The translations under genes were made by a program, and so were the position numbers. The notes beneath the pieces are model-generated. The model had not been told where the DNA came from and did no database searches. It worked only from the letters and a program-made list of their open reading frames with translations. This document shows, one piece after another, positions 3,545-15,570 of a stretch of 16,332 nucleotides of DNA. Source of the DNA: Sulfurovum sp. (GTDB taxonomy: Bacteria > Campylobacterota > Campylobacteria > Campylobacterales > Sulfurovaceae); assembly GCA_027046415.1 (NCBI GenBank), contig JALTYW010000080.1:1-16332 (forward strand), in the 5' to 3' direction. Position 1 is the stretch's first letter; every line of letters starts with the position of its first letter.

Positions 3545-4842
3545 CGTTGCAGCATCTCCTCATCCTCCGTTTTTCCTACAACGAGAATCGTATCATCCTC
3601 TGCGAGCAATGGTCTCTGCATTAAAGGGAAAATACGCTCCTCTCTCAAAACAAATACACTACACCCTTCCGGCGCATGTGCTATGGTCTTCCCAATCAAC
3701 GGTGACTGGGGATATATCTTTCGCATAAACAGTACAGCTTCTCCTCCGCAAAAATGGCGTTCACTCACAATACTGCTTGCCACAATACTCTCTAAGATCG
3801 CATAGTACGCTCCTGTTTTGCTTCCTCGTACGACCACAATGCCAAGCTGATGCATCAGCCCATAATAGGCTTTGTCATTGTTGATTGCAACAACCTTCTC
3901 CACACCATATTCTTGTGCTTCAATACACTTGACAATATTGGTCTCGTCATTTACAGTCGCGGCAATCAGCATATCGGCCTTTTTCAACCCCTCCTCTTCA
4001 AAAAGCCTATGATCTTCATAAGCGGAGTGAATCACCGTTGCCCTGCCCTCAAGATACTCCGCTGCCTGATGACACAGCTCTCTGTTCTTCTCGATCAGCT
4101 TGATCTCAAGATCACGTTTTAGCAGCTTTTTGGCGATCTTCTGCGCCAAAACATTCGCACCGAATATCGCAACCTTTTTGATTTTGGATGGGAGCTTCAC
4201 ATCAAGTATGGCCGAAGTTTTCTGAATGGTATGCTCCTCCCCGAACAGATACACCAGATCTCCATTTACAATCTTTTCATCTGCACTGGGAACCATAAAG
4301 CGTTTCTGACGTTCTATCCCTACAACCACCATTGTTTTATCTGTCAACTGACCAATAGACAACCCGGTCTTGCACTCTGCCTTGACTGACACCAGCTTGT
4401 GTTCTGTTTGTGGAAAACGCTTGACATTGTTCGCCTTTGGGAAAGCAAACAACTCTCCTACCTGATCAGCGGTCAATTTGTCAGGAAAGACCGCAAAATC
4501 GACACCGAGTTTTGCAATCACAGCACTGTTGGAGAAGTAATCATTGCGCAGGCGGATGATCTTCTTTCCTACCCTAACCGCATCTTCCACAATAAGTGTC
4601 GAAAGAAGGTTTGACTCATCAGAATCGGTAACAGCAATAAAGAGATCTACCGATTCCAGCGGTAGATCCTGATAGGTTTGAGGATCTTCGACATCACCTT
4701 GAAAAACCATAATATCAACATCCTCTTCAAGCTTGTTCAGCTTTCGGATATCTCTGTCCACCACAATAACATTGTACTTGAAAGAGAGCTTCTGTGCCAG
4801 AGAATACCCAACCGTTCCGGCTCCGGCGATCATCACATCCAT
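3526..4842 (-). CDS. trkA: TrkA, NAD-binding regulatory subunit of Trk K+ uptake
   Basis: A 438-residue cytoplasmic protein with two RCK units in tandem. It binds NAD(H) and/or nucleotides and gates TrkH. The first Rossmann fold opens with MIAGAGTVG (Gly7, Gly9, Gly12) and ends its second strand with the acidic Asp29 in VIVVDRD. The second starts near residue 223 (KKVAIFGANVLAQKIAKKL) with the matching acidic end LIEKN. Each Rossmann unit is followed by a TrkA-C-like domain. The start is fixed by AGGAGA about seven bases before ATG. It overlaps trkH and lies 28 bases after the thioredoxin-fold gene, so it may also be read from the nirF promoter. Its own promoter within that gap was not recognised. 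Confidence 0.94.
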   Translation of the reverse strand: MDVMIAGAGTVGYSLAQKLSFKYNVIVVDRDIRKLNKLEEDVDIMVFQGDVEDPQTYQDLPLESVDLFIAVTDSDESNLLSTLIVEDAVRVGKKIIRLRNDYFSNSAVIAKLGVDFAVFPDKLTADQVGELFAFPKANNVKRFPQTEHKLVSVKAECKTGLSIGQLTDKTMVVVGIERQKRFMVPSADEKIVNGDLVYLFGEEHTIQKTSAILDVKLPSKIKKVAIFGANVLAQKIAKKLLKRDLEIKLIEKNRELCHQAAEYLEGRATVIHSAYEDHRLFEEEGLKKADMLIAATVNDETNIVKCIEAQEYGVEKVVAINNDKAYYGLMHQLGIVVVRGSKTGAYYAILESIVASSIVSERHFCGGEAVLFMRKIYPQSPLIGKTIAHAPEGCSVFVLREERIFPLMQRPLLAEDDTILVVGKTEDEEMLQRWIYTR

Positions 4843-4870
4843 ACTGCTGTCTCCTTCTATATGGTCATTC

Positions 4871-5299
4871 TCATCTTATTATACTCTTTTCAGCCTGTTG
4901 CAGCATAGGGAGCACTTGTGTTCGTATGATCTCCGGCGTGATCTCTCTTCCGTAGAGCGGTGCGGCAAGCAGTTGTTCATCCCGCCAGTCTATCAGGAAA
5001 AGTGTAGGGAAGCGTGTAGTATAAAACATTTCTGAAGGGTATGCCGAAACATGATCTGCCTGTACAATCAGGGGGACTGTCATCCGGTTAAGCATATCTA
5101 CATACGGCTGATCTGTCATCACATCCTTTACAATCTCTCGGCTTAACCTGTCACCATTGCGAATAAGCAGCATCAAGATAGGTTTATGTGCCCGTATCGC
5201 TTTGCTGTGTGCTTTCTGGTAGCTTCCGCTCCAATGAACAAAATCCACGCCATAAGCGGTAACAGAGAGTACCAATAGCACACATCCAAACCGCAGCAT
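4871..5299 (-). CDS. Exported thioredoxin-fold protein lacking the CxxC motif
   Basis: A 142-residue protein with a short N-terminal hydrophobic segment (FGCVLLVLSVTAYGVDF), probably a signal peptide. The rest follows the thioredoxin-like layout of small periplasmic proteins: VHWSGSYQKAHSKAIRAHKP, then the strand ILMLLI, a helix, a central strand VPLIVQAD, and the cis-Pro segment RFPTLFLID near residues 96-104. Where the redox CxxC should follow the first strand there is RNGDRLSRE instead. The only cysteine, C6, lies in the leader, so thiol-disulfide chemistry is unlikely. It starts 10 bases after the nirF stop on the same strand, with a weak AGGTG ribosome site, so it is probably the second gene of the nirF transcript. 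A chaperone or docking role in nitrite reductase maturation is possible but is inference. Confidence 0.75.
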   Translation of the reverse strand: MLRFGCVLLVLSVTAYGVDFVHWSGSYQKAHSKAIRAHKPILMLLIRNGDRLSREIVKDVMTDQPYVDMLNRMTVPLIVQADHVSAYPSEMFYTTRFPTLFLIDWRDEQLLAAPLYGREITPEIIRTQVLPMLQQAEKSIIR

Positions 5300-5309
5300 C
5301 GTATCACAC

Positions 5310-6434
5310 CTACGGGTTCGCCTTCATATCATAGATAAAAATACCGGATGGATGCTCCACCTGGTAGATATCTCTGGCAAGATACCATTTTTTTGTATGG
5401 ATCACACTAACCTGATTGGCATCGTTGACAGAGACATAGAGAAAAGGATCATATTGTGACCATCGCACATGCAGTACTTTTCCGGGGAATGTAAACGTTT
5501 TGACGATCTTCAGTGTTTGGGTATCTATGATCTGAATCGTAGGAAAATCTTTTCCTGAATAGGTTACAGCAAGATACTTTTTATCCGGGCTTAGAGAAGT
5601 AAATACCGGCAATCCTTTGGTTTTGATGTTTTTGATAAATTTGAAATGCTTGTCATAAACCATCACCACATTATTTCCGACTGCCGGAATAAAGGTTTTA
5701 TCCTTGCTGATAGACCAAAAACCGAAATGGGGCACTTTCAACACGGGCTTGTTGCCTTCGGCGGTGATCTTGATCGCTTTGTACATCATTTTATCAAGAT
5801 CGATCACACCAAAAGCTTTTCCGAGAAAAAAGCCAACGATATAGGTATGTCCGCTAAGCATCGCGTCAAACGGCATTTGTCCTACGTCAAACTCTCTGTA
5901 TCGCTTGAATTTCGGCAACCCTTTTCCAGCGTTTTCATCTTTAAGCACAGTCACTTTGTCATTGTCCATCTGTGCAAAAACCAACATATCTTTATAGATT
6001 TTGATACCGACATTCTTTGACCCGGTCACAATTTTGTCAATGGGCTTGAGGTCACGGCTCAGAATATCTACTGATTTGTCGTCATAGTTGGCTACAGCGA
6101 CATAGTTTTTCCCTATAACAAATCCGATGGCAGACTTGGAAGTTTTGTACTCTGCTTCTTTTTTTTCAGTTTTCGGATCGAACTTTACAACATACCCGTC
6201 ACGGCTGATCAGATAACCATCATCGCCATCGAATTTGATGATCCCGTGATTCATGTTATGCATATGCTGCATATGTCTTCTGACCAACCCCTCTTCAATC
6301 ACTGCAACCGATTCACTCTCACGTTCGACTACAAATATTTTCTCTCTGGCAGTCGGAGTGGCCTCCTTCACAATATCAGGCGTAGCACCTATCAATAGAC
6401 TATATACAGATACGATTAGAAACAAGTATTTCAT
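5310..6434 (-). CDS. nirF: NirF-like heme d1 biogenesis protein
   Basis: A 374-residue beta-propeller protein with a Sec signal (residues 1-16) and no lipobox cysteine. NirF proteins act in the periplasm in late heme d1 synthesis for NirS. Evidence is the d1-propeller style of repeats: MNHGIIKFDGDDGYLISRDGYVVKFD (given in pieces: H63, then DGYLISRDG), AVANYDDKSVDIL, FIPAVGNNVVMVYD, IQIIDTQTLKIV, and a C-terminal HPSGIFIYD that matches the usual NirF ending. H63, at the head of the first blade, aligns by eye with the histidine known to matter in Paracoccus NirF. Just before it is an unusual His/Met cluster, HMQHMHNMNH (residues 54-63). The start is backed by GAGGA seven bases upstream, and a DNR/FNR-like promoter lies at 6469-6510. 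A generic YVTN-repeat protein is the main alternative; position next to nirS favours NirF. Confidence 0.8.
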   Translation of the reverse strand: MKYLFLIVSVYSLLIGATPDIVKEATPTAREKIFVVERESESVAVIEEGLVRRHMQHMHNMNHGIIKFDGDDGYLISRDGYVVKFDPKTEKKEAEYKTSKSAIGFVIGKNYVAVANYDDKSVDILSRDLKPIDKIVTGSKNVGIKIYKDMLVFAQMDNDKVTVLKDENAGKGLPKFKRYREFDVGQMPFDAMLSGHTYIVGFFLGKAFGVIDLDKMMYKAIKITAEGNKPVLKVPHFGFWSISKDKTFIPAVGNNVVMVYDKHFKFIKNIKTKGLPVFTSLSPDKKYLAVTYSGKDFPTIQIIDTQTLKIVKTFTFPGKVLHVRWSQYDPFLYVSVNDANQVSVIHTKKWYLARDIYQVEHPSGIFIYDMKANP

Positions 6435-6468
6435 TTTCAGTCCTCACACGATTTTGAAATTATGCTAC

Positions 6469-6510
6469 ATTGTACTCTATTTGTATCAATCATCCGTTGA
6501 GGCATATCAA
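6469..6510 (-). promoter_or_regulatory. DNR/FNR-like operator and -10 box in front of nirF
   Basis: On the minus strand TTGAT-ATGC-CTCAA (6510-6497) differs from a perfect FNR/DNR palindrome at one base. After exactly 22 bases comes TACAAT (6474-6469), five of six matches to TATAAT. With the start seven bases past the -10, the palindrome centre is at -41.5, the class II activator position. The same spacing occurs at the norC-side and 11976 sites. The binding protein itself is not in the window. Confidence 0.6.
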
Positions 6511-6625
6511 GCAAGCAGGGAAAATATTTGGAGAGAAAGACAGTTACGAGGGAAACCAATCAAACAGAAAAGGAGACTAAACTTTCACAGTTGATGATTT
6601 CCCGCCTGACTGCCTTGTTATGACA

Positions 6626-6646
6626 AAGAGGGCAGAGTGCCCTCTT
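6626..6646 (-). terminator. Hairpin just downstream of nirS
   Basis: A perfect 9-bp stem, AAGAGGGCA and TGCCCTCTT, with a 3-base loop, begins 15 bases past the nirS stop. The stem ends in TT, followed by TGTCATAAC, so the T tract is poor. It is likely a terminator or 3' stabilising hairpin separating nirS from nirF, which has its own promoter. Confidence 0.6.
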
Positions 6647-6660
6647 CATCTAGTGTGCCA

Positions 6661-8370
6661 TTATGCACCTGGAATGTGCTGTCTGTGCTCTACAGAATAG
6701 GTAAATGTCGGTGTTGTCAAGTTATGTATATACTTGATAAATTCACCTGTTTTGGCATTATAGATACCAATACGTCCGGTTGTCCACTCGGAAATAAATG
6801 TCCACTTTCCATGATTTGCAGGCTCTGCATGAAGCAGTCTCGGCTGTACCGGCTTGGCAACCTTGGCACCCGGTTTGGCTGTATAGGAGAGCAGCTTCTC
6901 TTTGGAAAGTTTCGAAGCTACCTCTTTGCCCGCCACAGTTTTAAACTGTGTTGCATCCCAAGTTTGCAATATCTTTCCTGTATGCGCATCAATGAGTCTA
7001 CCCTCTTTTTTGCCCACTTCAATAATACGGTCTGTCTCAAGTGTCTCTTTGTTGATCAGATACACTTTGTTGTAGTTCTCAGGGGTGCCGAGTACACAGT
7101 CTGCCCAAAGATACGGCGTATCCTTGCTGGTACCAACAAACAGACCACCGCCAGCGGTAGGAACATTTGCAACAACATCCCAGTTCATATCCCAGACAAC
7201 AATATTACCGACGTTCATGCTTGCTGTTGCGTTCAACTGTCCATACTTCTCATTAAACCATGAACTACCTTGACCTGGATGCGGTTTTGTTCCCGGACCT
7301 GTGTAAACTTTTGCCGCCAGTTTTTTCGTTTTAAAGTCAACGATACCCACCAGATCTGATCCCTGCGAAGCGATCATATAGTAACGACCGATCTCTTTCC
7401 CTTCATTGAGGAAGGCATCATGCAAAATCTTTCCAATATTTGGAATATCACCCACAATTGGGAAGTCCGGTTTGCTGTAGTCTACAATATAGACATGCCC
7501 ACCATCTTTGAGTGCGAATGCGAAATATGGTCCATACGGTGTATCGGCAATAGAAGCCACGCGGCTTGGTACAATATTACCGTCAGGGTCAATCACACCG
7601 GCTGTCTGATAGACTTTCAACGGTTCAAGTGTCATAGCATCACACAAAACAGCTCCACCTGGATTATAGTTACCCGCCATAACATATTTTCCATCCGGAG
7701 ACACGGCAAGCCCTCTTGACTCCTGACCTACCTGAACACTGGCAATCGCAGGCTGCCCCGGTGCTGCCAGATCAAACATCGTAAGACGTCCTGAACGCGA
7801 AATGGAATAGGCATAGCGCGGCATACGCTTGTTGGTTACGGTTACGTGTACGGCAAATCCTGCTTTATGTCGGGAGAGTACTTTACCGTTTGTACCGTCA
7901 ATGAAATCAACCAGTGATGCATCACGCTCTGTAGCAAATACAATATCCATGACACTCTTTACATCCGTTGCATGCGGATACTTCTTTAAGAGTTCCTTAC
8001 GGTCAGCAAGTTTTTTCCAACTCTTTTTTACCTCATCAAGATCGAGTCGCAGTTCTACCGTATTTTTCCAGTTCATCAGCCAGTCGACCATCCCCATTGC
8101 ATCATCTTTGCTGAACATATGTTTCCATGCCGGCATTGCCGTACCCGGACGCCCGTTCATAATCACCTCAGCCAGAGAATACGCCTCTTTTTTCTTCAGT
8201 GCTTTAGGACGGAGATCTGACCCAACACCACCCTGATGGATCGGTCCGTGACATCCCTGACACTCTTTCTCATATACTTTGGCAAAATCCATTTTGGATG
8301 ATCCTGCCATTGCCATGGTTGCAACCAGACTCGTCGCCGCTGCCAGTCCCAAAAGTCTACTAAGTTTCAT
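6661..8370 (-). CDS. nirS: Cytochrome cd1 nitrite reductase (NO-forming)
   Basis: A 569-residue periplasmic enzyme that reduces nitrite to NO in denitrification. It has a Sec signal (residues 1-22, ending AMA), then a cytochrome c domain with heme motif C37-QG-C40-H41 and a likely axial Met79 in GTAMPAW. The heme d1 eight-blade propeller spans about 135 to the C-terminus. H175 (GFAVHVT) fits the proximal d1 ligand. H317 (ILHDAF) and H364 (TKPHPGQG) fit the two active-site histidines equivalent to His327/His369 of Pseudomonas aeruginosa NirS. Length is normal for the family. The start is supported by AAGGAG seven bases upstream. Read on its own transcript: a terminator-like hairpin lies downstream and another after the small gene upstream. 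Only a TTGAC half-site (8449-8453) was seen in its promoter region, so its control may differ from that of nor and nirF. Confidence 0.96.
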   Translation of the reverse strand: MKLSRLLGLAAATSLVATMAMAGSSKMDFAKVYEKECQGCHGPIHQGGVGSDLRPKALKKKEAYSLAEVIMNGRPGTAMPAWKHMFSKDDAMGMVDWLMNWKNTVELRLDLDEVKKSWKKLADRKELLKKYPHATDVKSVMDIVFATERDASLVDFIDGTNGKVLSRHKAGFAVHVTVTNKRMPRYAYSISRSGRLTMFDLAAPGQPAIASVQVGQESRGLAVSPDGKYVMAGNYNPGGAVLCDAMTLEPLKVYQTAGVIDPDGNIVPSRVASIADTPYGPYFAFALKDGGHVYIVDYSKPDFPIVGDIPNIGKILHDAFLNEGKEIGRYYMIASQGSDLVGIVDFKTKKLAAKVYTGPGTKPHPGQGSSWFNEKYGQLNATASMNVGNIVVWDMNWDVVANVPTAGGGLFVGTSKDTPYLWADCVLGTPENYNKVYLINKETLETDRIIEVGKKEGRLIDAHTGKILQTWDATQFKTVAGKEVASKLSKEKLLSYTAKPGAKVAKPVQPRLLHAEPANHGKWTFISEWTTGRIGIYNAKTGEFIKYIHNLTTPTFTYSVEHRQHIPGA

Positions 8371-8466
8371 GCTTCACTCCTTAGTGCATCATATTCATAA
8401 TTTAGCCTAACTTAAAGCTTTTATGAATAAAATCATGAAGTCTATTATTTGACGATAACAGACACC

Positions 8467-8498
8467 TTTGGGGGTCCTACACCGACCCTCACCCCAAA
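8467..8498. repeat. GC-rich inverted repeat in the nirS upstream region
   Basis: TTTGGGG (8467-8473) and CCCCAAA (8492-8498) form a perfect 7-bp outer stem, and GGGTC/GACCC (8472-8476 and 8484-8488) gives a competing 5-bp inner pairing. It stands out as a G/C block in AT-rich DNA between the 48-residue gene and nirS. There is no T tract on either side, so an ordinary terminator is unlikely. Role unknown. Confidence 0.45.
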
Positions 8499-8530
8499 CT
8501 TCTTCCATCCAAGTGTATCATCTAAAAACT

Positions 8531-8573
8531 TAATAAAAATAGATTTAGATAATCACTTATATTGATAAATCTA
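8531..8573 (-). terminator. AT-rich hairpin with T run after the nor-linked small gene
   Basis: On the minus strand TAGATTTA (8573-8566) pairs perfectly with TAAATCTA (8547-8540) across an 18-base loop, followed at once by TTTTTATTA. The first stem bases are the stop codon of the 48-residue gene. This could end the norCB transcript. The weak AT stem and long loop make it uncertain; within the loop TTATCA and TGATTA are also near-symmetric, so an operator is the alternative. Confidence 0.45.
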
Positions 8574-8717
8574 CTTCTTTAAACGCTTCTTTTCCTGAAA
8601 ATAGATCCAGAACATCGGCAATACAATCACCGTATGTAAAAAGATCGTCAGCGTCAAAGGTCCCTGGTTCAACATACCGAAAAAACTCGGTACGACATCA
8701 GTAAACGGTTCAAACAT
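8571..8717 (-). CDS. 48-residue single-span membrane peptide downstream of norB
   Basis: A short gene on the minus strand with a strong ribosome site, AAGGAG six bases before ATG at 8717. The product begins MFEPFTDVVPSFFGMLNQGP, has one predicted membrane span at about residues 21-40 (rich in L, I, V, F, with His28 and Pro34 inside it), and ends in a basic tail QEKKRLKK that suggests a cytoplasmic C-terminus. An in-frame ATG at 8744, preceded by GAGAGG, would give a 57-residue form. It lies 68 bases after norB in the same direction, before a likely terminator. By analogy with small subunits of heme-copper oxidases (CcoQ) and bd oxidase (CydX) it might be an accessory subunit of NO reductase; this is inference. 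I do not recognise a named family. Confidence 0.7.
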   Translation of the reverse strand: MFEPFTDVVPSFFGMLNQGPLTLTIFLHTVIVLPMFWIYFQEKKRLKK

Positions 8718-8746
8718 CTTCTGCTCCTTATTCGTCAATTTCATTT

Positions 8747-8772
8747 ATGTTTCCTCTCAAAGGGAGAAACAT
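8747..8772 (-). repeat. Intercistronic hairpin between norB and the small peptide gene
   Basis: ATGTTTC (8747-8753) pairs with GAAACAT (8766-8772); past a single bulged C at 8754, TCTC and GGGA add four more pairs (one G-T), closing on an AAA loop. No T tract follows on the minus strand. It may protect the norCB 3' end or set relative expression of the small gene. Confidence 0.5.
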
Positions 8773-8785
8773 GTTCACCTAAGTC

Positions 8786-10234
8786 TTATGCGGCTTTGGC
8801 ACCTTGTTTTGCCTGCTTCCCGATAGTCAGCAGATCCCATACCAGATAGACAAATCCGACAAAGGTAACCACACCCATGATCGTCCGCCACATCTGCGCC
8901 TGCACATACCATGGAAGATTCTGTGCGGTAAAGAAAGCACTCCAGCCACCGCCGAGTTCCGCTCTTTCAACCAGTACCTGCTCATACCCTGCGATTGTCA
9001 ATGCAATCGTCATGCCAATCACACCAAAGGTGATCAGGAAGATCGCCATTTTGGATTTGAATGTTGCTCTAAGCTTCTCTATCCCGTAAGCACCCTGTAC
9101 CCCAAGATACATCATACCGATCAAGATCGTCGCATAGGCTCCGAAGAATGCCAGGTGACCGTGTGCTGCGGTAAACTGTGTACCGTGCGTATAGATGTTT
9201 ACCTGCGGCAGTGTATGGAAGAATCCCCAGATACCTGCGCCAAGGAAGTTTCCGAATGCATTGGTGACAATCCATGCCATAGCAGGACCGTTGTTCATCA
9301 CAGCACCCTCTTTGCCTTCCGCTTTTGCTTTCCCCTGCTCTTTACCCCAGTCATAGAGGACGTGTACGAACATCGCTACCAGAGGTACCGGTTCAAGTGC
9401 AGAGAAGAGCGCACCAATCTCCCACCAGTACTCAGGTGTACCGATCCAGAAGTAGTGGTGACCAAGCCCAAGGATTCCTGAACCAAAGAGCATCAGCACT
9501 TCAATCCAGAGCCACATTTCGACGATCTCACGCTTTGCCCCGATAATCTTGATCAGACCATATGCAGCAAGTGAACCTACAAAGACCTCCCATGTCGCTT
9601 CAACCCAAAGGTGAATGACCCACCACCACCAGTACTGATCCATAGAGATGTTGTCTGTAAAGAACATCCCTGCAAGGTAAAGACCAGCAAGTGCAAGCAA
9701 GTCTGCAACCAGTACAGTCAGAATACCGGTCTGTTTCCCTTTCATGTAAGTTGCAAAGACATTCCAGTAGAAAATAAGTACGACAACAACAATACCGATA
9801 TCGGCCCATCTTGGTGCCTCAATATACTCTCTACCCTCATTGATCAGCCAGATAGTCGACTCTTTACCAGGTCCTACCTGAATAAAGATGTAGACCAAAA
9901 CAACAACTGTTACAGCTGCTGTCAGTACCCAGAATGCCAGTTTGCCAAGACCTACACCAACTGTTTCCACACCTGCCTCATCAGGCAGCAGATAGTAAAC
10001 TGAACCTATCATCGCATAGAGCATCCATACAACCAGTGCATTGATGTGCACCATTCTTGCAACATTAAAGTCAAAAACTTCAAACAAGAAACCTGGAGCC
10101 AGGAACTGGATCGCTGCGATAAGTCCCATCAACAGCTGTGCACCGAACAGGATAATTGCTACCCTGAAGTACATCATCGCCAGTTTTTTCGACTCACTGC
10201 CCGCAAATTCGTTTGTTTTAATACTAGTGAGCAT
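8786..10234 (-). CDS. norB: Nitric oxide reductase subunit B (cNOR type)
   Basis: A 482-residue, about 12-span inner-membrane protein of the heme-copper superfamily that reduces NO to N2O using electrons from NorC. All expected ligands are present: H63 (low-spin heme b) and H360 (its partner) in AAHGHLAF, H358 (heme b3), and FeB ligands H208, H259 and H260 with the NOR-defining Glu212 in HLWVEATWE, rather than the Tyr-His pair of oxidases. There is no fused N-terminal quinol domain, so it is cNOR rather than qNOR. The ATG at 10234 is chosen because AGGAGG lies seven bases upstream; an in-frame ATG nine codons earlier has no such site. The start lies within the end of norC (11-base overlap), so the two are translationally coupled. 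Confidence 0.96.
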   Translation of the reverse strand: MLTSIKTNEFAGSESKKLAMMYFRVAIILFGAQLLMGLIAAIQFLAPGFLFEVFDFNVARMVHINALVVWMLYAMIGSVYYLLPDEAGVETVGVGLGKLAFWVLTAAVTVVVLVYIFIQVGPGKESTIWLINEGREYIEAPRWADIGIVVVVLIFYWNVFATYMKGKQTGILTVLVADLLALAGLYLAGMFFTDNISMDQYWWWWVIHLWVEATWEVFVGSLAAYGLIKIIGAKREIVEMWLWIEVLMLFGSGILGLGHHYFWIGTPEYWWEIGALFSALEPVPLVAMFVHVLYDWGKEQGKAKAEGKEGAVMNNGPAMAWIVTNAFGNFLGAGIWGFFHTLPQVNIYTHGTQFTAAHGHLAFFGAYATILIGMMYLGVQGAYGIEKLRATFKSKMAIFLITFGVIGMTIALTIAGYEQVLVERAELGGGWSAFFTAQNLPWYVQAQMWRTIMGVVTFVGFVYLVWDLLTIGKQAKQGAKAA

Positions 10235-10910
10235 TGGTGCCTCCTGTTTTGAATTGGTCAACTGTTTTCGAGAAGTTTCTCGGGAAACCGTTGGTGTCGA
10301 TACTACTCATATGTTTGAGGAATGCGACAAGTCCTTTTGCTTCTTCAGCAGTAATTCCCAGATTTGGCATCATACGTGCATGTGTAGGGTACTGTGAAGG
10401 GTGCTGCAGGAACTCTGCCATTGCCTCTTCTACCGTATTTTTCCCTGTCATTGCCTGCATAGGACCACCCTTCTGCCATGCCGGATCGATCCATGCCTTG
10501 GTCAGGTCAGGCGCATAATAGGCACCGTTTCCAAGCAGGGTATGACAGTTCATACAGTTTTTCGCCTGGGAAGTCAGTTTTCCAAGATGCAGCAGTGCCG
10601 CAGCCTCTTTCGGACTCCACTCTTTACCAAAGAAAGGCTCTTTTGCACCAATCACCGGCACCTCATGCCCTCTTCTTGTATCCATTTTGTAATCAATATG
10701 GTAATTGATCACAGTTGGTGCAGGCACTCTCTTGTTCTCTTTCTTCTCAGCAACCGCCTTTTGAAGATCAGCATCTGTTCCCATCGATATCTGTCCAAGT
10801 GTATCGAATGTAAGCCAGATAAGCAGAATGACCGCAAATCCGGTTACCCATGCTGCCGAACGCCGCCAGAATCGAATACTGGTCCAAACCGAAGCATTTT
10901 CGTTAGCCAT
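10224..10910 (-). CDS. norC: Nitric oxide reductase subunit C, extended form
   Basis: A 228-residue membrane-anchored cytochrome c that passes electrons to NorB. One span is visible at about residues 19-38. The heme motif is C119-MN-C122-H123 in the NorC signature NCMNCHTLLGNGAYYAPDL. RMMPNLG (M180 or M181) gives the Met ligand, and FLKHMSSIDTNGFP is the typical C-terminal motif. NorC is about 146-150 residues in Pseudomonas; here about 70 extra residues lie between the anchor and the heme, including VINYHIDYKMD and KEPFFGKEW. The ATG at 10910 has AGGAGG five to six bases upstream, which is better than the ATG nine codons earlier. It lies 87 bases after the three-span gene and overlaps norB. 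Confidence 0.94.
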   Translation of the reverse strand: MANENASVWTSIRFWRRSAAWVTGFAVILLIWLTFDTLGQISMGTDADLQKAVAEKKENKRVPAPTVINYHIDYKMDTRRGHEVPVIGAKEPFFGKEWSPKEAAALLHLGKLTSQAKNCMNCHTLLGNGAYYAPDLTKAWIDPAWQKGGPMQAMTGKNTVEEAMAEFLQHPSQYPTHARMMPNLGITAEEAKGLVAFLKHMSSIDTNGFPRNFSKTVDQFKTGGTNAH

Positions 10911-10997
10911 GTTTCCTCCTTTTTCAATGTGATACACAAAACCGTTACAGTTTTGTATTCACGCTCTTTCCCTCTTTCAAACGCTTCAACTGCGCAC

Positions 10998-11354
10998 CTA
11001 TCGTTTGTGATCCTGCAGACTCTCCTCTGTCCCTTCGTACCGCTCATCTGCCGATGAGATCAGATAAAAATAGAGATGCGGGACAAAAAGATATGCGACC
11101 ATCGTCACCATCAGTACTTTCATAGTAAAGTGATTACTCTGGATCAGCATCGCAAAGTCATACAGGAAATAAGTCTGTAATGCCCAAAACAGATACCCCA
11201 CAGGCATCCACTTTTTGGAAAAGTACCCCATCTTGGCAAGGGTAATGGTTGCGGCATACCCTACACCAAAAACGAGTACGAGTGTCGATTCGATGAAGAT
11301 AGGCAGGAACTGATCCAGCGCTATCTCCGGTCTTACGATCAATACTTCCGTCAT
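10998..11354 (-). CDS. Three-span membrane protein, first gene of the norCB operon
   Basis: A 118-residue protein with three hydrophobic segments: about residues 16-40, 48-71 and 76-100. It ends in a charged tail (SSADERYEGTEESLQDHKR). No cysteines and no heme motif. AGGAGG lies six to seven bases before ATG, within CAGGAGGCAC, the same ten bases found before norB. It is the first gene after the DNR-like promoter at 11417-11458 and precedes norC by 87 bases, so it should be made together with NorCB. It is not a recognisable NorD, NorE, NorF or NorQ. It could be an assembly factor or extra subunit; function unknown. Confidence 0.75.
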   Translation of the reverse strand: MTEVLIVRPEIALDQFLPIFIESTLVLVFGVGYAATITLAKMGYFSKKWMPVGYLFWALQTYFLYDFAMLIQSNHFTMKVLMVTMVAYLFVPHLYFYLISSADERYEGTEESLQDHKR

Positions 11355-11416
11355 GTGTGCCTCCTGTCGGTTTTGCTGTTTTACTGTAAGGGTTCAAGAT
11401 CCTTTGAGCATAAAGT

Positions 11417-11458
11417 ATTATGACAGCTTCACGGAACAATACGATTGACTTATGTCAA
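11417..11458 (-). promoter_or_regulatory. DNR/NNR-type operator and -10 box of the norCB operon
   Basis: TTGAC-ATAA-GTCAA on the minus strand (11458-11445; TTGAC-TTAT-GTCAA on plus) is a perfect palindrome of the DNR/NNR consensus used by CRP/FNR-family N-oxide regulators. After 22 bases comes CATAAT (11422-11417). The implied start at about 11410 puts the palindrome centre at -41.5. The leader to the ATG would be about 56 bases. This is the cleanest of the three sites. Confidence 0.72.
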
Positions 11459-11469
11459 GGAAGAGAGAA

Positions 11470-11491
11470 AATCATAGAATAATTTATGATT
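11470..11491 (-). terminator. Weak hairpin after the two-span membrane protein gene
   Basis: AATCATA (11470-11476) and TATGATT (11485-11491) make a perfect 7-bp stem with an 8-base loop. On the minus strand it is followed by TTCTCTCTT. It lies about 60 bases past the stop at 11552 and just ahead of the norC-side operator. A weak terminator is likely; a second protein site is the alternative. Confidence 0.3.
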
Positions 11492-11551
11492 CAAATAAGT
11501 AAAAATGATAAAAAAGTTTGAGAAGATTTGCTTATACAGGAAAGGTGTATG

Positions 11552-11917
11552 CTACTCAACAATACACCGAGCAATGAAAAATGGCCTTTCATAGTAAGGA
11601 GAGACGAAATTGTCCCCTTTCAATCTCCAGCCATTCTCCTTTTTGATATGTACTACCTGAGAGACCTTGCGCTGCATACGGCTTTCACACAGAATGGATC
11701 TGTTCTGCTCAAAAGCACCTTTTACTTCAGTCATTCTGCTTGTCGTAATATAATAGTGTGCCCCTATCATGACTGCCAGCACCAGCAAAACACCACTCAG
11801 CCCTTTTTTGGGTGCATTTTTGGACATGAACGGTCGGGTAGTGACAAACAGTGTGATAAACAGCACAATCCCTGCAAGAATGAGATAGGCCCCCTCAAGA
11901 TAGAAAAACGTTTTCAT
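11552..11917 (-). CDS. Two-span membrane protein of unknown function
   Basis: A 121-residue product. Two membrane spans are visible, at about residues 7-27 and 43-58, with a basic loop (RPFMSKNAPKKG) between them, which suggests both ends face the periplasm. The C-terminal half, about 60 residues, is soluble, with two cysteines (CESR and ARCIVE) and a KKENGWRLKG stretch. The ATG at 11917 is preferred, with AAAGGG nine bases upstream; a TTG three codons earlier (11926) is possible but would touch the ribosome site. It is transcribed away from the 12048 gene across a shared DNR-like operator. I do not recognise a family. Confidence 0.65.
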   Translation of the reverse strand: MKTFFYLEGAYLILAGIVLFITLFVTTRPFMSKNAPKKGLSGVLLVLAVMIGAHYYITTSRMTEVKGAFEQNRSILCESRMQRKVSQVVHIKKENGWRLKGDNFVSPYYERPFFIARCIVE

Positions 11918-11947
11918 CCTCAACAACCCTTTAATTGATATGTAAAA

Positions 11948-11989
11948 AGTGTATCACACTTTACCATCCCTGCCATTGATATCCGTCAA
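11948..11989 (-). promoter_or_regulatory. Leftward promoter sharing the central DNR/FNR-like site
   Basis: Read on the minus strand the palindrome is TTGAC-GGAT-ATCAA (11989-11976). After 22 bases comes TACACT (11953-11948), four of six matches to the -10 consensus. The centre is again at -41.5 from the implied start near 11941. It would drive the two-span protein gene. The -10 is weaker than in the other direction. Confidence 0.42.
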
Positions 11990-12017
11990 GTAAAACTGAG
12001 CAAAAACGTTCTATACT
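11976..12017 (+). promoter_or_regulatory. Rightward promoter with DNR/FNR-like operator
   Basis: TTGAT-ATCC-GTCAA (11976-11989) has one FNR-type and one DNR-type half-site. After exactly 22 bases comes TATACT (12012-12017). The implied start near 12024 puts the centre at -41.5 and leaves a 24-base leader before the ATG at 12048. Confidence 0.65.
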
Positions 12018-12047
12018 AACGCAACGGAACAAAAGGGGTGTTTTAAC

Positions 12048-12434
12048 ATGGGTAAATTTTCAAAATATCTGCTGCCGGCACTGATGATAGGCTTTTTTCT
12101 TTTTGGACTCAGTGCCTTCATAGAAGGTAAACCAAGCCATAAAAATGCCAGAATCTACAAAGCGGTTCAGCAGTACAGTCCCTACTACTTTGAAAAACGT
12201 TTCGGGGGGCTGGAGATACGCAGCAAAACCGATACCGAGTTCAAAGAAAAACCCAGCAATATGGAAGTCTTCAAAGCCTTTGAACAACTCGAAAGGGCAT
12301 GGGGGCAGAAACATCTTGTTATCAAAAATGATACACTGCTCATTACTGACACCAATGGTACAGTACACACTCTTCCAATCAAAAACGAAGAGGAACGCCG
12401 CTTTATCCAAAACTATTACGGAGTACAGCCATGA
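12048..12434 (+). CDS. Membrane-anchored protein of unknown function, first of a two-gene operon
   Basis: A 128-residue protein with one N-terminal hydrophobic segment (about residues 7-26, LLPALMIGFFLFGLSAFI), acting as an anchor or uncleaved signal, then a hydrophilic domain of about 100 residues. The domain has no cysteines or recognisable cofactor motif. Its C-terminal part has the pattern HLVIKNDTLLITDTNGTVHTLP, likely a beta hairpin. AGGGGTG lies before the ATG with long spacing. Its stop overlaps the next gene as ATGA. It has a DNR/FNR-like promoter and lies across from a membrane protein near norCB, so a link to nitrite/NO respiration is inferred. Family not recognised. Confidence 0.7.
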   Translation: MGKFSKYLLPALMIGFFLFGLSAFIEGKPSHKNARIYKAVQQYSPYYFEKRFGGLEIRSKTDTEFKEKPSNMEVFKAFEQLERAWGQKHLVIKNDTLLITDTNGTVHTLPIKNEEERRFIQNYYGVQP

Positions 12435-12619
12435 TGGATATTGTCATCACACTGGTCTTCAGCATTGTGATGCTGGTCTTTATGGCATTTCCCGCTATGA
12501 AGATCGTCGAGTGGATAGAACGTAAAGTGAATGTACCGGAGAGGTGGCACAATGTACTGCTTATTGGTATGGTTATATTCCTCTCTTTGCTGGTCGGCAT
12601 CTTCCTCAAATTTGCCTGA
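12431..12619 (+). CDS. 62-residue two-span membrane protein
   Basis: A small protein with two hydrophobic helices (about residues 4-23 and 41-60) and a polar linker rich in charge (KIVEWIERKVNVPERWHN). The linker tryptophans, Arg and Glu suggest a membrane-surface segment. The start ATG shares bases with the preceding stop (ATGA overlap), so translation is coupled to the 128-residue gene. A second ATG follows at once. No named family is recognised. Because of the shared transcript the two products may form one complex. Confidence 0.7.
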   Translation: MMDIVITLVFSIVMLVFMAFPAMKIVEWIERKVNVPERWHNVLLIGMVIFLSLLVGIFLKFA

Positions 12620-12645
12620 TAACCGCCTATTAACCACAATTTCGA

Positions 12646-12651
12646 TAAAAT
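12646..12651 (+). promoter_or_regulatory. Candidate -10 box for ilvE
   Basis: TAAAAT in the context CGATAAAATATTCC, 55 bases before the ilvE ATG, fits the AT-rich extended -10 of Campylobacterota. No -35 at normal spacing. A GGGAG ribosome site lies eight bases before the start. A small ACCCG/CGGGT inverted repeat (12669-12692) lies in the leader. Confidence 0.4.
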
Positions 12652-12706
12652 ATTCCTATTCATTTTTTACCCGCACTTACAAAATGACGGGTTGGGAGCA
12701 TAACAT

Positions 12707-14901: not shown

Positions 14902-15570
14902 ATGACCATCGACTGGAACAAAAACCCCCTCATCCCCGCCATCGCACAAGATGCCGACACCAATGAAATTTTAATGCTTGCCTACATGAACAAAGAGGCA
15001 TACGAGTTGACACTCTCCACCGGTTTTGCCCACTACTTTAGCCGCTCCAAACAGCGCATCTGGAAAAAAGGCGAGAGCTCGGGACATACGCAGGAAGTCA
15101 AGGATGTGCTGCTTGACTGTGATGCCGATACGATCGTACTTAAAATAAAGCAGAATGGCGTTGCCTGCCATACAGGACGCAAAAGCTGCTTCTTTACCTC
15201 TGTGATGCAAGAGAAGGTCATTTTGGACAAAGAGGTTGACACTGATGCCATTTATGGTGTAGTCGATACCCTCTACCATACTATCCTTGAGCGTAAAAAT
15301 GCCCCTGCAGAGCAAAAGTCATGGACAAAAAAACTACTTGACAATAAAGAACTTATGCTAAGTAAAATCACTGAAGAGGCGCAGGAAGTCGTCGATGCCA
15401 TTGACCACGAAAGTGACGAACAGGTCATTTATGAAAGTGCCGATCTGCTCTACCATACCCTTGTCGGTCTTGGTTACCGAAACATTTCACCCGACAGAGT
15501 CAAGCAGGAACTGGCACGTCGATTTGGTATGAGTGGTATCGAAGAGAAAGAGAGCAGAAAGAAGTCGTAG
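14902..15570 (+). CDS. hisIE: Bifunctional phosphoribosyl-AMP cyclohydrolase / phosphoribosyl-ATP pyrophosphatase
   Basis: A 222-residue fusion that performs steps 2 and 3 of histidine synthesis in the cytoplasm. The HisI part (about 1-110) has AYMNKEAYELT, SRSKQRIWKKGESSGH, the Mg site D72-C73-D74-A-D76 and zinc cysteines C73, C89 and C96. The HisE part (about 118-215) is an all-helical MazG-like fold with E158, E159 and E162 in TEEAQEVVDA and E178/D181 in YESADLLYH, which bind Mg. All catalytic residues are present. The gene sits behind an unusual repeat and hairpin leader; no other his gene is in the window. It ends 39 bases before the convergent purF stop, with no obvious terminator in between. 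Confidence 0.95.
   Translation: MTIDWNKNPLIPAIAQDADTNEILMLAYMNKEAYELTLSTGFAHYFSRSKQRIWKKGESSGHTQEVKDVLLDCDADTIVLKIKQNGVACHTGRKSCFFTSVMQEKVILDKEVDTDAIYGVVDTLYHTILERKNAPAEQKSWTKKLLDNKELMLSKITEEAQEVVDAIDHESDEQVIYESADLLYHTLVGLGYRNISPDRVKQELARRFGMSGIEEKESRKKS

Follow-up and report, generated by a model that had tools for sequence, protein, structure and literature searches.

Crp/Fnr-family regulators that act from a palindrome centred near −41.5 have been described in several bacteria, and we compare them here with four promoters in a 16,332-nucleotide (nt) stretch of DNA from a Sulfurovum genome bin (the window), which precede the nitric oxide (NO) reductase genes norCB, a nirF-like gene and several genes for small membrane proteins. 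The published systems are cited from parts of the papers named. In Pseudomonas and the betaproteobacteria DNR is an NO-responsive Crp/Fnr activator with the box TTGATnnnnATCAA and with nir, nor and nos genes as its targets (PMC1274295), and in E. coli 19 of the 23 FNR-activated promoters with a known start have their site at −41.5 ± 4 (PMC3688515). In Wolinella succinogenes NssA, NssB and NssC answer nitrate, NO and nitrous oxide (N2O), and the same has been suggested for marine relatives (PMC6682613); NssA and NssB have a Dnr-type DNA-binding domain (PMC6682613, PMC11539149). In Nitrosophilus labii there are two Crp/Fnr genes whose identity to NssA and NssB is 44.8% and 50.0%; Crp/Fnr genes are located upstream of nap and nor, and TTGA-N6-TCAA begins 49, 48 and 48 nt ahead of the starts predicted for napA, norE and nosB, respectively (PMC11539149). 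The type of switch considered here is already known, with a precedent in N. labii.

Vents and sulfidic sediments commonly harbour Sulfurovum-like bacteria, and the literature on how these control denitrification seems thin. Compared by description only, the locus is like the Nss systems of Wolinella and N. labii in its phylum (Campylobacterota), in involving the Crp/Fnr superfamily, in having a palindrome near −41.5 and in its nap, nor and nos targets; it differs in that the candidate regulator, found in a complete relative (G011), adjoins heme d1 genes, and in that a divergent double promoter and small membrane genes are not among the features for which the cited parts describe those systems. 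DNR regulons have the same box and the same nir, nor and nos targets, but they belong to another phylum and have other accessory genes. The class II promoters of E. coli FNR likewise have the palindrome centre at −41.5 (PMC3688515), whereas the candidate regulator here is without the FNR cysteine cluster. As far as the consulted parts of the open-licence literature go, the bidirectional site between the genes that we call o124 and o128, together with the membrane genes linked to it, appears to be undescribed.

A fixed spacing at four promoters

We defined the palindrome as the 14 letters TTGAY-N4-RTCAA, with the two arms scored out of 10 and the reversed pattern serving as control, and scored −10 hexamers as matches out of six to TATAAT. 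In the window three palindromes accompany four −10 hexamers, and every palindrome-to-hexamer distance, read from the sequence and recomputed, is exactly 22 nt (Table 1), as an earlier note on this DNA had claimed; the DNR/FNR-like sites which that note saw as common to nor, nirF and small membrane genes are likewise where it placed them. If transcription is taken to start 7 nt downstream of the −10, each of the four centres falls at −41.5. Going by the sequence, an FNR-type palindrome at this distance from a −10 is the layout of a textbook class II Crp/Fnr promoter.

Conservation across relatives is a stronger test of this layout than figures for chance. We compared the best 80 of the 486 norB loci in a public collection, placing the genes of the window in them by tblastn; the closest named relatives by norB were Sulfurovum bins, with up to 96% identity over the best segment. 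The norCB promoter set comprised 72 Campylobacterota sequences, including the window, in which the start of the small upstream gene o118 could be placed. The palindrome was perfect in 70 of these 72, and the −10 lay at exactly 22 nt in 69 of the 70 and at 21 in the remaining one. The arms had a mean pairwise identity of 0.90 and the −10 one of 0.85, against 0.41 for the spacer and 0.39 for the upstream sequence. A greedy selection kept 43 of the 70 promoters that share less than 60% identity with one another over flank plus spacer, so this conservation is not explained by recent common descent. The information content reached 2 bits at the fixed arm positions and nearly so at four of the six −10 positions, and was low between arms and −10; a few columns there stand out, among them a G located two bases ahead of the −10, which fits an extended −10 element. 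When 31 genomes were scanned for the palindrome followed by HATAAT at spacings of 12–34, the distribution peaked at 22 among the 150 matches listed; spacing was exactly 22 in 48 of the 102 listed matches within the genus and in 13 of the 48 outside it.

The source bin (1.44 Mb, 260 contigs, 65.7% complete; the window is its contig C80) contains 13 exact palindromes versus one match to the reversed control. Six of the 13 lie inside long open reading frames (ORFs) and two in the window; outside the window TATAAT follows at exactly 22 nt on contigs C53 and C199, TATACT at 23 on C231 and C249, and TATAAT at 18 on C110. Allowing up to one mismatch, the window has nine sites, a number reached in none of 200 shuffles (mean 3.31), and only three of the nine are the sites of the earlier note. 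Hexamers of at least 4/6 with A2 and T6 occupy 98 of the 2852 intergenic hexamer places (3.4%), which puts the chance of hitting four of the six possible directions at about 2e-5, a post hoc figure, as the spacing was picked after being seen. A plain sigma-70 scan of positions 4800–12700 was not enriched (18 found, 14.2 ± 3.9 expected). Judged by these comparisons, the shared spacing, which the earlier note had thought hard to ascribe to chance, is not due to it.

One palindrome facing two ways

The palindrome at 11976 lies between the divergent genes o124 and o128, and the conservation seen for norCB extends to this pair. For this comparison we used the 56 sequences in which o124 has a perfect palindrome next to it and o128 or o62 is present. 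On the o124 side the best −10 lay at 22 nt in 35 of the 56 and at 23 in 18; on the o128 side it lay at 22 in 47, of which 44 read TATACT. The latter element was present at 22 nt with o128 adjacent in 46 of 47 sequences and without it in one of nine (Fisher p 5.6e-8, a value that is too small because the sequences share ancestry). The palindrome thus faces two ways, and its second −10 depends on the presence of the divergent gene. In the loci without o128 no other fixed spacing could be recognised on that side; by eye, −10-like hexamers stood at varying distances and followed no rule.

A parallel exists in E. coli, where 11 divergent pairs have a single CRP site (PMC3105977) and, as in the arrangement proposed here, a single bound regulator serves two opposite promoters (PMC3105977). 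Here, in distinction from those pairs, each of the two −10s is spaced from the one palindrome as in a class II promoter, and this is kept across many genomes. The site would be well suited for testing whether one activator dimer can serve two class II promoters.

As a separate observation, seven of the nine loci in which o128 is not adjacent (L053, L058, L070, L072, L075, L077 and L090) have a Crp/Fnr gene after o62 and are without the class II −10 on that side, and in L049 a Crp/Fnr gene begins 27 bases beyond the palindrome.

Candidate regulator and extent of the predicted regulon

The earlier note had also asked for the CRP/FNR-family regulator gene to be found, and here the outcome was divided: such a gene is linked to the sites in relatives, but searches of the bin of the window with PF00027, PF13545 and the G011 protein did not find it in the 65.7% of the genome that the bin represents. 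The G011 protein has 233 amino acids (aa) and combines a sensor domain of the cyclic nucleoside monophosphate type (PF00027, 2.9e-16) with a Crp helix-turn-helix (PF13545, 4.4e-14). On one side its gene adjoins a NirDL-type heme d1 gene, and on the other a gene that we take, from its sequence, to encode a uroporphyrinogen methyltransferase. Among the 80 nor loci, 17 have a homologue in the flanks that were retrieved, and an orthologue with 66–90% identity was present in all 12 relatives searched. The protein matches the solved DNR structure 3dkw at E 7.1e-9, and is matched with better scores by 3h3z and 3fx3, which are named only cyclic nucleotide-binding protein.

Across 37 regulator sequences, at least one genome being counted twice, all had ET[FL]SR in the recognition helix; an E..SR recognition helix suits TTGA half sites. 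An FNR-like N-terminal cysteine cluster, of the kind that holds [4Fe-4S], was seen in none of the 37, and in three a single Cys stood among the first 30 residues. In two relatives of 99% completeness (G016 and G017) the orthologue of the G011 regulator is the sole HTH_Crp_2 match at E <= 0.001, the only other PF00027 match being a frame of 627 or 623 aa, so by elimination this orthologue would be the protein that reads the sites there. G009 resembles them, except that its second PF00027 match is a frame of 152 aa close to the start of a contig; in G008 PF00027 has three matches, of which one is 202 aa long. The regulator is likely to be a Dnr/Nss-type Crp/Fnr protein.

The earlier proposal of a compact N-oxide regulon proved too narrow, since two unlinked loci of the bin share the promoter and G011 adds further genes. 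We searched 16 genomes for relatives of the unlinked genes and dropped one duplicate from each count. On C53 (locus L004, site 2647–2660) the site precedes an FmdE-like gene followed by a hemerythrin gene, a candidate NO-handling pair, and palindrome, 22 nt and TATAAT were found in 14 of 14 distinct relatives. On C199 (locus L009, site 1045–1058) it precedes a gene for a DUF2269-like membrane protein; here 12 of 14 distinct relatives had a site of at least 9/10, with ten −10s at 22 and two at 21. The cytochrome c peroxidase gene of C249 was considered as a core member and dropped.

G011 has 29 palindromes, compared with four control matches, and 16 of the 29 lie within 86 kb. Ten overlap ORF calls and 19 do not; among these 19 a −10 of at least 5/6 stands at exactly 22 nt on one side in 13 (for one of which the nearest listed gene is more than 1 kb off) and at 21 or 23 in four, and two have none. 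The well-placed sites precede genes for a Rieske protein, nor, o124/o128, nirF, NrdB, a GAPDH-like protein and NrdD, and further ones cytochromes c, nosZ, a cupin, a FIST protein, the FmdE-like/hemerythrin pair and the DUF2269-like protein, while the siroheme and NirDL genes flank a site with weaker −10s (4/6). As predicted from these sites, the regulon is wider than nor and wider than first proposed, and in G011 the sites suggest that it includes ribonucleotide reductase genes. In the same genome the sites ahead of NrdB, the GAPDH-like gene and NrdD were located at 15213–16394 of locus L123.

With its one-base precision, the spacing would allow the regulon to be recognised from sequence in uncultured relatives, and the site leads to uncharacterised proteins linked with NO reduction.

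Competing explanations and the genes concerned

One activator protein probably docks at the palindrome, and we consider it very probable that a single Dnr/Nss-type Crp/Fnr activator, acting in the class II position at −41.5, joins nor, the nirF-like gene, o124 and o128-o62. A dimer of this protein would bind each palindrome and, centred at −41.5, would replace the −35 element and contact RNA polymerase; we propose that this class II contact holds the −10 at a distance of 22 nt, sometimes 23. At 11976 a single dimer would serve two opposite class II promoters. The norCB genes with their small membrane genes, o124, o128-o62 and the nirF-like gene would in this way come under one signal, most likely NO and possibly nitrate or N2O, and nirS would perhaps be expressed by read-through from norCB.

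Several observations weigh against the single-activator reading. The regulator gene was missing from the searched bin, although we consider this absence weak and attribute it to the missing third of the genome, since NirDL found no match in the same 65.7%-complete bin either. No comparable site exists in the 450 bases upstream of nirS, and the best match there (7/10) was rejected as a site of its own; among nirS relatives a site of at least 9/10 was found in 15 of 65 sequences, most loci being without one. The nirF sites are looser than those of norCB: 14 of 22 sequences had a site of at least 9/10, with the best −10 at 23 in eight, at 22 in four and elsewhere in two, which leaves 12 of 22 with such a site and a best −10 at 22 or 23. 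The cytochrome c peroxidase gene had a site in six of 13 distinct relatives, two of them with a −10 of at least 5/6 at 22. Most denitrification transcripts of N. labii were found to be constitutive under anoxia in the absence of nitrogen oxides (PMC11539149), which makes simple induction less likely, and one of its Crp/Fnr genes was inferred to act negatively on nosZ (PMC11539149).

This last effect is the point in favour of the sites being repressor operators, which we regard as very improbable, as the constant distance of 22 nt does not cover the −10 and corresponds to the class II position of activators (PMC3688515), and where the divergent gene is lost its −10 is lost too but the palindrome stays. 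The sites and the class II mechanism could also belong to a regulator that senses oxygen or redox state, in which case the genes would form an anaerobic-respiration and not an N-oxide regulon. The Rieske protein and the class I and class III ribonucleotide reductase genes behind sites in G011 would suit this, as would the expression of the N. labii genes under anoxia without N-oxides (PMC11539149); we nevertheless think it rather improbable, because the 37 sequences have no FNR-like cysteine cluster, the regulator genes adjoin nor or heme d1 genes, and a review, in the part cited, reports no FNR orthologue in Campylobacterota (PMC6682613).

It is less likely than not that several Crp/Fnr paralogues with different signals use the same promoters, as the three Nss proteins NssA, NssB and NssC do in acting on the same reductases of W. 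succinogenes (PMC6682613). Two to four HTH_Crp_2 matches in several relatives mean that another family member could share the sites, which also counts against a single activator; G016 and G017, however, keep nor-type promoters of this layout with one HTH_Crp_2 match each. Hardly credible as a general account is chance, or a set of ordinary sigma-70 promoters whose −35 happens to resemble half a palindrome. The plain sigma-70 scan does offer an alternative near nirF, an ordinary-looking TTGATA-16-TAGCAT (6489–6462) that overlaps the site and is a further point against its assignment to the activator. Against this explanation, the upstream TTGAY arm begins 36 nt before the −10, leaving 30 nt between the hexamers instead of the usual 17, and both arms and the spacing are conserved. 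For norCB and o124/o128 this explanation is refuted by the conservation, and it would be possible for single sites such as that of nirF.

Returning to the single activator, what its targets do can be stated more tentatively. At a little short of an even chance, we propose that o118, the 48-aa protein, o124, o128, o62, the FmdE-like/hemerythrin pair and the DUF2269-like protein form a nearly obligatory and so far unrecognised accessory module of NO reduction in Campylobacterota; their products might serve in the assembly or protection of cNOR and NirS or in dealing with NO, and the dimer firing both ways would hold the divergent parts at a fixed ratio.

On the minus strand the genes follow in the order o118-norC-norB, the gene of the 48-aa hydrophobic protein, nirS and the nirF-like gene, and upstream of nor o124 (minus) diverges from o128-o62 (plus).

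Table 1 Promoter elements and genes of the window, with positions counted from its first letter
Feature	Positions	Strand	Details
Palindrome, o118-norC-norB promoter	11445..11458	−	TTGACTTATGTCAA; minus strand TTGACATAAGTCAA
−10 CATAAT, o118-norCB	11417..11422	−	5/6; spacing 22; start expected near 11410
Palindrome common to o124 and o128	11976..11989	both directions	TTGATATCCGTCAA; perfect in 56/59 sequences
−10 TATACT, o128-o62	12012..12017	+	5/6; spacing 22; start expected near 12024
−10 TACACT, o124	11948..11953	−	4/6; spacing 22; start expected near 11941
Palindrome, nirF-like gene	6497..6510	−	TTGATATGCCTCAA; 9/10, one arm mismatch (CTCAA)
−10 TACAAT, nirF-like gene	6469..6474	−	5/6; spacing 22; start expected near 6462
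o118, small membrane protein gene ahead of norC	10998..11354	−	tblastn match in 72 sequences
norC, cytochrome c subunit	10224..10916	−	start near 10910; Pfam cytochrome c; matched in 78 sequences
norB, cNOR catalytic subunit	8786..10261	−	3o0r_B, E 9.4e-94
48-aa hydrophobic protein between norB and nirS	8571..8717	−	tblastn match in 79/81 sequences, E up to 1
nirS, cytochrome cd1 nitrite reductase	6661..8370	−	without own site; 1dy7, E 2e-42
nirF-like gene	5310..6434	−	6tv2 NirF, E 1.9e-28
o124, hydrophobic N-terminal part	11552..11926	−	conserved start ATG at 11917
o128	12048..12434	+	47 homologues aligned
o62, 62-aa hydrophobic protein	12431..12619	+	tblastn match in 58 sequences

Pfam searches at E up to 10 returned nothing credible for o118, o124, o128, o62, the 48-aa protein or a 142-aa gene. 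The gene of the 48-aa protein is shorter than the 60-aa cut of the ORF list, and a scan by consensus between norB and nirS gave no terminator-like site on the minus strand. For the alignments we used 47 of 50 o128 and 45 of 48 o124 homologues, leaving out the more distant ones. Among the 45 aligned o124 sequences two cysteines, C80 and C121 (numbered on the window frame 11555–11926), are invariant and lie in CESR-like and ARC motifs.

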